NCBI GenBank assembly: GCA_024711005.1
Contig: JANJTQ010000046.1
Span: 1 to 34,179, forward strand
Length of the DNA stretch: 34,179 nucleotides
Origin: Opitutaceae bacterium
Lineage (GTDB): Bacteria; Verrucomicrobiota; Verrucomicrobiia; Opitutales; Opitutaceae
Reading direction: 5' to 3'
Position 1 is the first letter of the stretch. The number at the start of each line of letters is the position of its first letter. The notes under the pieces are model-generated. The model had not been told where the DNA came from, did not search any database, and saw only the letters and a list, made by a program, of their open reading frames with translations. Made by a program: the position numbers and the translations under genes. This document shows positions 25,843 to 30,875 of this stretch, piece after piece.

Positions 25843-26367
25843 TCACCGAGCGATCTCGACCGAGGTCACGCGCCAGGAGGCGGTCAATTGGGTCGGATTC
25901 GACCGGTTGCTCGCCAACGCGAACTGCTCCAACCCCAGATACGGGGCTCGCTGCGCGAGCGTCCGATAAAACTGGATGAGCTTGGCGATGTCGGCGTTGC
26001 GGGCGGTGAACTGCACCGAATGCACCGCAAACTGACTGGTGCGCGCCGTGCGGCTGTCGGACACATCGTAGTTGGACAATCCCGCCGTGCGAGCCAGCGC
26101 GTTGAGCTCACTCTGCAGGCGCACACTGTCAAAGGTCTTGGACGGATCGAGGTGTTCGATTGCCAGCTCCGCCTCACGCTCGATGCGCTCACGTTGCTGC
26201 AACCAGCGATTCTGCACGTCGAGATCGGTCGAGGTGGCCCTGAATGAGCGCACTTGCGAACCCACTCGTTCGCTCACACCGGATAGCCAGATGGCCGCGC
26301 CAATCAGCACGAATACCACCAGCAGGATTTTCTCACGCAGGAGCCGGCCTAGGAAATATGCTCTCAT
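25843..26367 (-). CDS. gspM: Type II secretion GspM-like protein
   Basis: 174 residues from the ATG at 26367. A cytoplasmic start (MRAYFLGRLLREK) and one transmembrane helix (about 13-30, ILLVVFVLIGAAIWLSG) are followed by a helical stretch (about 40-95) and a ferredoxin-like periplasmic domain (about 98-174), the layout of GspM and PilO. The sequence is divergent, so the name rests largely on topology and position after gspL, with which it overlaps by 4 nt (ATGA). GspM pairs with GspL to hold GspE at the membrane. Confidence 0.75.
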   Translation of the reverse strand: MRAYFLGRLLREKILLVVFVLIGAAIWLSGVSERVGSQVRSFRATSTDLDVQNRWLQQRERIEREAELAIEHLDPSKTFDSVRLQSELNALARTAGLSNYDVSDSRTARTSQFAVHSVQFTARNADIAKLIQFYRTLAQRAPYLGLEQFALASNRSNPTQLTASWRVTSVEIAR

Positions 26368-27599
26368 GACTTGGTCTCCGGTTCGGGTTGTGTCGACTCG
26401 GATGGGGCGACTGGCGATTCAGGAGAAGCGGGGGTTCGCGGTGAGGGCGGTGGAGGTTCCTCCACGACCGTAAAAGCATCGGGACTAAAGGTGACCACCA
26501 GGCGAAAGGTCGAAACTCCGTCACGACTCCGCGGATCCAGCACCTCGGCCTTCTCGCAACCGTCGAGACCATTGAGTGCGGACCGGAACACGTCGATGTC
26601 GCCCGTTGAGTGAGTCTGCGCATCGACTTCCATCGTATGGAGTCCGCTGGTCACGGTCCTCATGAACTGGATGGTGGGAGGACGCACCGTGTTGATCAGC
26701 GCGAGCATCTCAAAGGGCAACAGGCGCTTCGTCGACAGTTCATCGATGCGCGTCGCGAGAGCCTGTGAAGTCATGATTCCCTCGACGATCGGCCCCTGCT
26801 CCGCCACCAACGCAAGTCGCTGCTTCTGCCAGATTCCAGTGCCAATCAGCGCGACTTCCAACAACGCCGCGAGACCGACCGCCGCCAGACAGCCGAGAAA
26901 CGTACGCCACAACACCACATCGCGCGCATGCGCTCGCCGACGGGCGGCCAGATCGCCCTTGTCCCGTACATCAAGCGGAGCGACGTCGGCCGCGTTGAAA
27001 TGCGACTCAATGACGCCGGCTCGAATAACAAACTCCCCTTGCGGCGAGGCGGGATCGAACTGCGGTTCACTGCCCGCATCGATCACTTGAAGTGTCTCGG
27101 AAAAGGCGCGCAACAAGACATCGCGCGCGGCAGCCCGGTCCTCGTCGGTTGCTTCAGCGGGGAGCTGCGCGACCTGCACCCGCGTCGGAACACCGCTCGC
27201 ATCGGAAAAATAAAGCCCGGTGAGCGCCTCCGGTCCCGGCACGATCACCACGGTCTCCGGCGCGGGAGGGTCATCCTTGCGCAATACGGTCACGAATGAC
27301 GGCAACACCGCCTCGGCATCAGCCCAGGTCTCCACTTCTTCGGCGGTAAAACGCTTCCGGTAAGCGGAGTAAATCAACGCATGCGGCGAGCCCGGCAGCC
27401 AGTGATGTCCGTAATACAGCTGAGCAATGGGAAAAGGCGCGAGTGCCTCCACCGCAAGCTCGGCCTGCGCCGCGACGTCGGCGGCGGTCGCACCCTCGGT
27501 CACCGGTACCGACCGCACAAAAAAGAGCGTGTCCGGCAAGAGCACGACGTGGCGAAGCGGCGGCGCGGGAAGAAAGCGTTTAAGCGAGGAGAGACTCAT
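26364..27599 (-). CDS. gspL: Type II secretion GspL-like protein
   Basis: 411 residues from the ATG at 27599. A cytoplasmic region of about 225 residues begins with strands such as RHVVLLPDTLFFVRSVPV and is consistent with the actin-like GspL fold. A single transmembrane helix spans about 228-255 (FLGCLAAVGLAALLEVALIG), followed by a helix and a ferredoxin-like periplasmic domain (about 300-375). The C terminus is a Pro/Ser/Glu-rich tail of about 35 residues, unusual for GspL. Assignment is by order and topology; sequence similarity to known GspL is weak to my eye. It is coupled to gspM by an ATGA overlap. Confidence 0.75.
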   Translation of the reverse strand: MSLSSLKRFLPAPPLRHVVLLPDTLFFVRSVPVTEGATAADVAAQAELAVEALAPFPIAQLYYGHHWLPGSPHALIYSAYRKRFTAEEVETWADAEAVLPSFVTVLRKDDPPAPETVVIVPGPEALTGLYFSDASGVPTRVQVAQLPAEATDEDRAAARDVLLRAFSETLQVIDAGSEPQFDPASPQGEFVIRAGVIESHFNAADVAPLDVRDKGDLAARRRAHARDVVLWRTFLGCLAAVGLAALLEVALIGTGIWQKQRLALVAEQGPIVEGIMTSQALATRIDELSTKRLLPFEMLALINTVRPPTIQFMRTVTSGLHTMEVDAQTHSTGDIDVFRSALNGLDGCEKAEVLDPRSRDGVSTFRLVVTFSPDAFTVVEEPPPPSPRTPASPESPVAPSESTQPEPETKS

Positions 27600-27736
27600 G
27601 CGGTCGGTTCGTCTGACTGGGCGGGCAAGGGAATCCTATTATCGTTTTCACGGATTTCGAGAAACGTAAACGGGTATTTAAGATCAACGACCTCGGGAAC
27701 GGCCGTCGTTGGAGTGTTGGACGAGGCCGGGGGGGG
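27596..27736 (-). other. Out-of-frame 3' extension of gspK after a C8 run
   Basis: On the minus strand gspK reads through eight C residues (27729-27736) and stops at 27684. Skipping one C puts it in a second open frame that runs to a TGA at 27596-27598 and encodes VPEVVDLKYPFTFLEI followed by RENDNRIPLPAQSDEPTA. That stop overlaps the gspL ATG as ATGA, as at the other junctions of this operon. The bases 27600-27683 would otherwise be the only real gap within H-I-J-K-L-M. Either the run has one base too many in the sequence, or the gene is truly shifted or slips during expression. Confidence 0.7.
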
Positions 27737-28781
27737 CGGCGGGAGCAGCCTCCTCGTTTTCAGCGGGCTTGGCATCCGCGCTGGCGACGTTGCTGGCGGG
27801 AACGACCTTCGCTCCATCGGCCGGTGCCACCACGGTGGTCAGTTCAAAAGACGAACGGCCCTGCTTGACGGCTATCGTGATTCTCAACGCCTGCACGGTC
27901 ATCCCATAGCCGAGTTTCGACGGTTGTCCGCCGGCCACGGCCGCAATGCTGCGCTCGCTCTTGAAAAAGCCCGGACCTTGCGACTGATAGCCGCCCGTGC
28001 CGCCGAGATATTCGTTCACGCGCTGGACCTGCTGGGCGTCAAAAATTTCCTTGGCGAGCAGAGGCTCGAGCCGGCCTCCATTGATATTGGGGGTCTTGAA
28101 CCGATAGAGCGAAAACGTCTCCACGAAATGCCGGTGCAGGTCGTTCGGATTCCCCTCCTCGTCGAAAAACGCCTGGCGCACGCCCTCGATCGAGGCGAGT
28201 TCCGCAAACGAACGCAATGAGCGCTGCGGCGGTGCGAAGGGCAGCGGCAGTGCGTCGTAGTCGCGCGTCGTCGCGGCGTTCATGTCGGTCGGCGTGTAGT
28301 CCTTCCGGATCCACACAAGCAGCGAATCGGCGATCGGCTCCGCCTGGGTGTTCGTGAGCCCCCAGTACTCGAACAACGACACGAGCATGTCGGGTTTCAC
28401 CTCGGGCAGTGAAAGCTTGGCACTCTCATCCTCCATCCGAACCTCGACCGTCACACCCTCGGTGGGTTCGTAACCGGCGAATTCAAGTGGATTACTCCAG
28501 CCCTCGGCCGGGCTGTGCAACCCTTCGGCCACCTCGCGGAAATCCTCCAATACAGCCAAAGTGGTTTCGAGAGCCGAATAGGCTTCCAGCCGCAGCCGGC
28601 TCGCGTCGGCCTCACGAATCGGAACAATCAGATCCGTACTCGCCTTCTCGATAAAGAGCAGCAAGGCGGACGTGGCAAAGACCAGTGTGACCAGTACGAT
28701 GAGCAGCACGGAGCCGCGTCGGCGCAGAATGACCTGCGAACGGTCGACAACGGATGAAAGGGATGGGGCCAGGTCGTTCAT
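27684..28781 (-). CDS. gspK: Type II secretion minor pseudopilin GspK
   Basis: 365 residues from the ATG at 28781, as the frame stands. The prepilin leader ends RRRG before SVLLIVLVTLVFATSALLLF (about residues 24-43), and Glu at +5 is absent as is normal for GspK. The large globular part (about 50-320) includes GspK-typical ESAKLSLPEV and ADSLLVWIRKDYTPTDMNAA, where a helix-hairpin region with acidic metal ligands is expected. GspK forms the pseudopilus tip with GspI and GspJ. A one-base change in the C8 run at 27729-27736 would replace the last residues and lengthen the protein to about 394. Its start is one base after the gspJ stop. Confidence 0.88.
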   Translation of the reverse strand: MNDLAPSLSSVVDRSQVILRRRGSVLLIVLVTLVFATSALLLFIEKASTDLIVPIREADASRLRLEAYSALETTLAVLEDFREVAEGLHSPAEGWSNPLEFAGYEPTEGVTVEVRMEDESAKLSLPEVKPDMLVSLFEYWGLTNTQAEPIADSLLVWIRKDYTPTDMNAATTRDYDALPLPFAPPQRSLRSFAELASIEGVRQAFFDEEGNPNDLHRHFVETFSLYRFKTPNINGGRLEPLLAKEIFDAQQVQRVNEYLGGTGGYQSQGPGFFKSERSIAAVAGGQPSKLGYGMTVQALRITIAVKQGRSSFELTTVVAPADGAKVVPASNVASADAKPAENEEAAPAAPPGLVQHSNDGRSRGR

Positions 28782-28782
28782 C

Positions 28783-29424
28783 TCAGAAAACCGGCACACC
28801 TTGCGTGACCGTCGGCAACATGATGAGCACCTCCTGCGAACGCGTTCGGTAGGTGAACTTTAGGCGCAGACGCCGGGGTGCCTCGTATTCACCCTGGGCG
28901 TTGCGACGCGGCTGCGGCTCGTTTTTCCAGTTCTTAAAATCCGCATCGTAATAGTCATAGCTCATCGCTGACACCAATGGGGACACAACGGTTTCCCGGG
29001 GCGACTGATCCGCGAAATTTTTTTCCAGCCGGGAATGCCACAAAAACAACAACCCGGTGCCTTCGCGCACCGACAAGGAACACACCACCTCGGGCAGCGG
29101 CTGGCCCGGCCAGACAAACATGCGACTGCCTTCAAACAGTTCGAAGGTGAGCAGCGTCTCCGTCATCCCCGCCTGGGTACGAATCTCCTGAACCGTGATC
29201 GGCGGCTGGTCGGGGGTGCCGGCCGGCGGCAATGCGGCGGAGCGCAGCTCGTTTTCAAGGAAGCGCGTGACCGCACGGACATGTTGATCGAAAAGCCGCA
29301 GATCGGTGTTCCGCCCCCATAGTTCGCCCATGGAAAACACAAACGTGTTCAGCGCGATCATCAGCAAACCCGTGAGGGCAAGGGCGACCAGCGTCTCAAG
29401 CAGGGTGAATCCGCGGCGCCTCAT
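28783..29424 (-). CDS. gspJ: Type II secretion minor pseudopilin GspJ
   Basis: 213 residues from the ATG at 29424. Short leader MRRRG then FTLLETLVALALTGLLMIAL, with the conserved Glu at +5 of the mature protein. The globular domain contains RAVTRFLENELRSAALPP and a late strand LRLKFTYRTRSQEVLIML, consistent with GspJ size (about 200). It belongs to the GspH-I-J-K minor pseudopilin complex at the tip of the pseudopilus. It overlaps gspI by 4 nt (ATGA) and is followed by gspK after one base. Confidence 0.88.
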   Translation of the reverse strand: MRRRGFTLLETLVALALTGLLMIALNTFVFSMGELWGRNTDLRLFDQHVRAVTRFLENELRSAALPPAGTPDQPPITVQEIRTQAGMTETLLTFELFEGSRMFVWPGQPLPEVVCSLSVREGTGLLFLWHSRLEKNFADQSPRETVVSPLVSAMSYDYYDADFKNWKNEPQPRRNAQGEYEAPRRLRLKFTYRTRSQEVLIMLPTVTQGVPVF

Positions 29425-29882
29425 TTGTTCACCCCTTCCAAAATCTTGACGATACGATCGCGCGAAGCGGCACGCAGAGTCGACCGGTCGGCCGCCACCG
29501 ACCAAGTCGGACGCAACACGCGAAACACCTGCCGAATCCCCTGGGGCTTGAGCGAGCCCGAGCCCGTGATCTCACACTCGAAGGTAACCGTGAAGAGATC
29601 GGCTTCGTTGGTCGGTTCGATCGTCGCCGTCCAGCGGATACGACGGCCGTCGTTCCCTTCAAATTCCCCGCCTTGCCGGGCGAGTTCCACATCGGGTTGG
29701 TTGAGCAGCTGCGCACGGGCAAACTGCATCTCGGGATCGTTCACCGTCGCCCGCCTCGCGGCCTCGTATCCATTGAGCACATTCACATAGCCCACCGCGA
29801 GCGCGATGGCCGAGGTCGCGAGAATCGCGATGGCGATCAGCACCTCGATCAGAGTAAAACCCGACTGACGTGGACGGCTCAT
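29421..29882 (-). CDS. gspI: Type II secretion minor pseudopilin GspI
   Basis: 153 residues from the ATG at 29882. Leader MSRPRQSG is followed by FTLIEVLIAIAILATSAIAL, with Glu at +5. The small globular domain (about 45-150) fits GspI size. It recruits GspJ and GspK to start the pseudopilus. It is coupled at both ends, by ATGA overlaps with gspH upstream and gspJ downstream. An upstream open stretch of 34 codons in the same frame lies inside gspH and is not used as a start here. Confidence 0.88.
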   Translation of the reverse strand: MSRPRQSGFTLIEVLIAIAILATSAIALAVGYVNVLNGYEAARRATVNDPEMQFARAQLLNQPDVELARQGGEFEGNDGRRIRWTATIEPTNEADLFTVTFECEITGSGSLKPQGIRQVFRVLRPTWSVAADRSTLRAASRDRIVKILEGVNK

Positions 29883-30400
29883 CGGACGGGTTGGTTGGTG
29901 AGAATGGGCGCACAGGTCCAAGGATCGATCTCCAGCACACGAGCGCCATTCCGGGTTTTCAGTTGCACGCGAAACGGTGAACACGTGCCGTCCCGATAAA
30001 ACGTCACGAACGGCATCGTCTGCGTTTCAATCAACTCCCCGCCGACCAGCATCGCCGAAAACGTTCCGGGGGATTTGGGCGGGAGAAAATCGAGTTCGGC
30101 GGTCTCCTTCGCAACGAACGGATACCGCACTCCTCCGTCTTCCGAGGACGCGACGAATTCACCTTTTGCAGGATCGAAACGCAGGCGCACATCCCGATTA
30201 CCGAGCAGCGCTTCTTTGCGGACTTCGCCGACAGCGCTCCAAAAAAGCTCCTCCGGAGTTTTCGGACGATCGCGCAGAAGACTGTTGGCCCCCACCACGA
30301 GCACACCGGTCAGCAGCGCGATCAGCGCAAGCGTCACCAGCACCTCAAGCAATGTAAAACCGCCCCGGCCGCAGGGGGATCTCGGAGCGGTTGCAGACAT
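29879..30400 (-). CDS. gspH: Type II secretion minor pseudopilin GspH
   Basis: 173 residues from the ATG at 30400. The leader (MSATAPRSPCGRGG) precedes FTLLEVLVTLALIALLTGVL, with Glu at +5. The following domain contains FWSAVGEVRKEALLGNRDVRLRF, the pattern of GspH/FimT-type pseudopilins, and ends with strands FVTFYRDGTCSP and a C-terminal Cys-containing stretch. GspH links the minor tip to the GspG shaft. 28 bp separate it from gspG, and it overlaps gspI by 4 nt. Confidence 0.87.
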   Translation of the reverse strand: MSATAPRSPCGRGGFTLLEVLVTLALIALLTGVLVVGANSLLRDRPKTPEELFWSAVGEVRKEALLGNRDVRLRFDPAKGEFVASSEDGGVRYPFVAKETAELDFLPPKSPGTFSAMLVGGELIETQTMPFVTFYRDGTCSPFRVQLKTRNGARVLEIDPWTCAPILTNQPVR

Positions 30401-30428
30401 GAGACGCGTGGCAGTGGCCGCGGACGGC

Positions 30429-30875
30429 TTACCAATTGCCAATATCGTCGGGCGTACCCTCGGCCTTGTCGGGACCCTTGGAGAACAGATCGTAGCTGTC
30501 TTTGTTCTTCGTGCCGGGGTAACGATATACGTAGGGCTCCTGCCAGGGATCGACGGGGACCTTGGCCCCCGGGGACTCAAGGTAGGGTCCGCGCCAGTTG
30601 TCGGCCTTGTTTTGCGGTGCCGTTACCAGCGCCTGCAATCCCTCGGCCGTGGAGGGATAGTCTCCCATATTGATGCGATAGGCGGCGAGGGGGGCCTTGA
30701 TGCTCTGGCGGACAAATATTTCGGCGGTGGAGACTTGGGAGCCACCAAAGATCTTGCCGGCATTGGTCACGCCGAGACCGACCAGCAGTCCGATGATGGC
30801 CAGGACCACCAGGATTTCGAGCAGGGTGAACGCACGACGGGATGCGCGAAGGGATTTGCGGGGAGATAAACACAT
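30429..30875 (-). CDS. gspG: Type II secretion major pseudopilin GspG
   Basis: 148 residues from the ATG at 30875. It makes the shaft of the periplasmic pseudopilus. The leader ends SRRA before FTLLEILVVLAIIGLLVGLG, so the residue before the cleavage site is Ala15 and not the usual Gly. The rest is typical: YRINMGDYPSTAEGLQALV, NWRGPYL, VPVDPWQEPYVYRYPG, and the C-terminal calcium-site region FSKGPDKAEGTPDDIGNW. Length is normal. It is the first gene of the minus-strand secretion operon and lies just after tRNA-Arg and its terminator on the same strand. Confidence 0.95.
   Translation of the reverse strand: MCLSPRKSLRASRRAFTLLEILVVLAIIGLLVGLGVTNAGKIFGGSQVSTAEIFVRQSIKAPLAAYRINMGDYPSTAEGLQALVTAPQNKADNWRGPYLESPGAKVPVDPWQEPYVYRYPGTKNKDSYDLFSKGPDKAEGTPDDIGNW

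Follow-up and report, generated by a model that had tools for sequence, protein, structure and literature searches.

A one-base excess in a C-rich linker probably parts gspK of an Opitutaceae draft genome from its conserved C terminus

Introduction

In the type II secretion operon analysed here, the deposited reading frame of gspK stops at 27686-27684, 84 nt short of the gspL ATG (27599), while an open frame continues up to gspL in another register. Where does the GspK protein end, and what separated the two frames? The first-pass annotation had singled out this gap as an outlier among otherwise tight minus-strand junctions from gspH to gspM, and had proposed that a run of eight C breaks the gene through an indel error, a real frameshift mutation or slippage on the run. 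Both the 84-bp gap and the tightness of the other junctions were borne out by the deposited sequence: gspH and gspI, gspI and gspJ, and gspL and gspM overlap by ATGA, and between gspJ and gspK there is a gap of 1 nt, the gspK ATG at 28781 lying 1 base past the gspJ stop.

The gsp operon and gspK as deposited

The window, i.e. the whole stretch of 34,179 nt that was analysed, is contig 30 of an Opitutaceae draft genome of 5.0 Mb in 351 contigs. The nearest named relatives of this genome are metagenome-assembled Opitutaceae, namely Rariglobus sp. and Opitutaceae UBA4094 (Verrucomicrobiota). The operon lies on the minus strand with the ORF order gspG-H-I-J-K-L-M and includes the following features:

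29879-30400, minus strand: gspH-like ORF, intact; named by position and prepilin-like N terminus
29421-29882, minus strand: gspI, intact; Pfam N_methyl, start at an ATGA overlap
28783-29424, minus strand: gspJ, intact; Pfam N_methyl, start at an ATGA overlap
27684-28781, minus strand: gspK, minor pseudopilin, deposited form of 365 aa; Pfam T2SSK_1st, ends prematurely at 27684
26364-27599, minus strand: gspL, intact ORF; kept as the neighbour of gspK in relatives, no Pfam match
25843-26367, minus strand: gspM-like ORF, intact; ATGA overlap with gspL, named by position, no Pfam match

The assignment of gspK is based on its match to PF21687 (T2SSK_1st; E 4e-9, 37.6 bits against a cut-off of 26.2) and on its location between gspJ and gspL, as judged from the neighbouring ORFs, their junctions and the adjoining gspL in relatives. 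The gene thus resembles known type II secretion GspK in Pfam family, in the gene order G-H-I-J-K-L-M and in a hydrophobic prepilin-like N terminus. GspK of an intact relative gave a weak match to the solved GspK 3ci0_K (3CI0 chain K) over 77 residues, and its AlphaFold2 model, built from three sequences, reached a pLDDT of 41, which corresponds to very low confidence. Scanning the minus strand for promoters and terminators revealed nothing relevant. At the upstream end of the operon, gspG and gspH are separated by a 28-nt gap (30400-30429) if gspH starts at MSATAP; the junctions downstream are tight.

The out-of-frame tail as the C terminus of GspK

Three features at the end of gspK bear on the question of where the protein ends:

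27729-27736, minus strand: C8 run, likeliest site of a net one-base excess; the shift falls within the linker, at about 27721-27780
27596-27728, minus strand: out-of-frame stretch, strongly supported as the true gspK C terminus (..SSNTPTTAVPEVVDLKYPFTFLEIRENDNRIPLPAQSDEPTA, TGA); in frame in 10/10 complete congeneric genes
27596-27599, minus strand: ATGA shared by the gspL start and the out-of-frame gspK stop; ATGA or GTGA in 10/10 congeners

In agreement with the first-pass annotation, the run comprises exactly eight bases in the deposited sequence (G8 on the plus strand, C8 on the minus strand), which exceeds every other G/C run of the window in length, and the frame beyond it is open up to the TGA at 27598-27596, which forms ATGA with the gspL start. 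This alternative frame encodes the tail PASSNTPTTAVPEVVDLKYPFTFLEIRENDNRIPLPAQSDEPTA.

For comparison, we used 13 genomes of the genus, in which 10 others contain a complete gspK (L004-L013). All ten genes encode an (L)(K/N)YPFTFLEI(R/H)END tail in frame and share a 4-nt overlap with gspL, whose start codon is ATG in seven and GTG in three of them. In the closest relative (G001, 81% identity), gspK is split across two contigs inside the linker; the second of these contigs shows the same tail and ATGA junction, consistent with the other congeners. Beyond the genus, other genera of the family have a variable linker rich in S/T/P/A and, after it, the motif LNYPFTLLEIxEN; in most of the order's other families, GspK ends in a weakened form of this motif. 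The tail of the window itself is identical to that of L006 at 32/36 residues (pN/pS 0.41) and to that of L004 at 30/36 (pN/pS 0.35). Against the three most similar tails, pN/pS ranges from 0.35 to 0.49, so that the tail appears undecayed; it should therefore still be translated, or have lost its translation very recently, or be broken only in the assembly. Among about 40 relatives whose C terminus could be read, we found neither a loss of the tail nor a second broken gspK.

Since the tail is in frame in every complete congeneric GspK, the match exceeds what chance would produce, and the comparison strongly supports the out-of-frame tail as the true C terminus of GspK. The first-pass annotation had suggested looking at related gspK genes, where a short C terminus would speak against its proposal; the relatives carry the tail. 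That the short GspK is native and the open frame downstream a product of chance has the deposited reading on its side, but members of the genus and the family keep the tail's sequence, its position and its junction. We consider this reading refuted by the comparison with relatives, its probability being practically nil. For annotation, this means that the gspK entry is truncated, with its true C terminus out of frame, and that a gene caller would miss here a peptide conserved at the C terminus of Opitutales GspK.

Across the Opitutales sequences inspected (L004-L031, L092-L110), GspK ends in a [YF]PFxxLEIxEN-like peptide that is preceded by a highly variable low-complexity linker. This combination of variable linker and conserved C-terminal peptide sets them apart from the usual GspK, and no direct precedent for the tail was found in the literature searched.

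Position and origin of the frame change

Homology to relatives reaches as far as about VVPASNVAS in the upstream frame and sets in at about SNTPTTAVPE in the downstream frame. The linker between these homologous parts (about 27780-27721) is hypervariable, with many in-frame indels among relatives, and codon usage alone did not pinpoint the shift site. Taken together, homology and codon usage place the frame change somewhere within the variable linker, where the C8 run is the likeliest of the possible sites.

Because every relative checked has the tail, an ordinary indel, be it an assembly error or a recent mutation, very probably accounts for the locus and no new mechanism is called for. According to this explanation, the gspK linker, which codes for proline and alanine, carries one base in net excess, most likely at C8; this would bring the ribosome out of frame, so that the deposited GspK ends 84 nt before gspL. 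The excess would have arisen by chance, as an indel in a linker that is rich in C and evolves fast, without a programmed signal. Its source may be an error in the draft assembly, which is slightly favoured; the alternative is a mutation of very recent date or a variant of a minority strain. The intact neighbouring gsp ORFs, the undecayed tail and the hypervariable linker are all consistent with a chance indel. If the excess base were real in the cell, GspK would lose its conserved C-terminal motif. The translational coupling of gspL would probably be lost as well, since no Shine-Dalgarno-like sequence was found upstream of the gspL ATG and the gspK stop overlaps the gspL start in all complete congeners.

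An assembly error has, in our estimate, about an even chance of being the cause. In a census of all runs of exactly eight C/G across the genome (n=28), 9/28 are no more than 100 nt away from a contig end, compared to 0.39 expected, an excess which suggests that the assembler was troubled by C-runs. The G001 assembly is also broken at a C-run in the gspK linker (end of contig 76, L113; start of contig 5, L112). Against this explanation, about 6.4 kb separate the gspK run from the closer end of its contig, and several C8 runs in the interior of contigs are in frame within or between domains of conserved genes. The latter comprise runs at residue 61 of MnmE (inside TrmE_N, 29-143), at residue 300 of a radical SAM protein (domain 188-337), at residue 437 of carbamoyl-phosphate synthase, where two domains flank it, and at residue 353 of a chorismate-binding enzyme (inside Anth_synt_I_N, 295-444); a further one lies in an autotransporter-repeat protein. 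As these runs pass in frame through conserved genes, C8 does not seem to be generally miscalled, and the deposited C8 in gspK may likewise be right.

Homopolymers are mutation hot spots, and a recent slipped-strand insertion in the C-run, fixed in the population, could have truncated GspK and uncoupled gspL. We regard a real, fixed frameshift of this kind as a serious candidate whose chances nevertheless stay below even, because the downstream tail is without decay, the neighbouring gsp ORFs are intact and the tail is kept in all relatives compared.

Two further observations concern C-runs in these assemblies. Runs of 8 to 24 C/G bases cluster strongly at the contig ends of the genome studied here (G000 contigs C99, C116, C168, C195, C216 and C249, and further C286, C299, C218, C220 and C340). 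The two contig ends in the gspK linker of G001 have a short C-rich sequence in common.

Slippage and phase variation

A homopolymer at the frame junction together with a preserved downstream frame would also fit a slippery site, at which polymerase or ribosome slippage yields both short and full GspK or at which the gene is switched on and off. Phase variation at homopolymers has been documented for other bacteria (e.g. PMC5084427), and the locus shares with such contingency loci, as with homopolymer indels in draft genomes, that a mononucleotide run differing by one base in length breaks the frame. In contingency loci, however, the run is typically long and strain-variable and the off state recurs, whereas conservation of the gspK C8 is lacking and the relatives showed no further off state. 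A run of C8 or longer is present at this place in 0/10 complete congeners, none of which requires a shift; all read straight through the junction, so that no conserved slippery sequence is seen there. The single long C-run seen in a relative (C10, L028) is in frame, other C8 runs of the genome are read in frame, and about 40 relatives, which belong to other species, provided no second off state and no further broken copy that would accompany a varying run length.

We therefore give the slippery-site reading little credence. As C8 is absent in the congeners and the frame break does not recur, we regard both phase variation and programmed frameshifting as very unlikely. A more specific version, in which cells of this one species carry C8 and make short and full-length GspK by slippage, thereby tuning the pseudopilus tip and the coupling to gspL, appears fainter still. 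From the three options of the first-pass annotation, the comparison with relatives thus retains an indel that parts gspK from its true C terminus; slippage as a working mechanism finds no support, given that the run is absent in congeners and a second broken case is missing among the relatives.

A DNA-conserved block at the end of gspK

Within the C-terminal peptide, one stretch is unusually conserved at the DNA level and deserves attention of its own:

27641-27679, minus strand: 39-nt block coding KYPFTFLEIREND; DNA-identical in eight congeneric species

The block, AAATACCCGTTTACGTTTCTCGAAATCCGTGAAAACGAT, is identical in the window and in G001, G002, G004, G008, G009, G010 and G012, where it is single-copy in each genome; a ninth species shows two mismatches. 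Folding with RNAalifold proposed an RNA hairpin in the block (columns 41-64). This candidate has one co-varying pair in congeners; the aligned codons of other genera preserve it inconsistently, and it was rejected as unproven.

Codon invariance was counted in six of the eight species sharing the block, using complete gspK genes only, whose proteins are 71-90% identical. While 44/225 of the invariant GspK residues have an invariant codon across these six species, the 39-nt block presents 13 invariant codons in a row, compared to a longest other run of 2 in gspK and 3 in gspL. In the genus as well as in other genera, GC3 of the tail motif is low, at 0.48-0.50 versus 0.72-0.84 in the preceding part of gspK; for the family, the values are 0.50 and about 0.8. 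These patterns suggest a putative nucleic-acid constraint where gspK ends, which might concern the accessibility or processing of the mRNA or the coupling to gspL, and the block is a candidate cis element close to the start of gspL. Taken across the family, codon identity in the motif is 0.498, which is not elevated over the 0.484 expected from codon usage, indicating that strict identity at the DNA level belongs to one clade of the genus.
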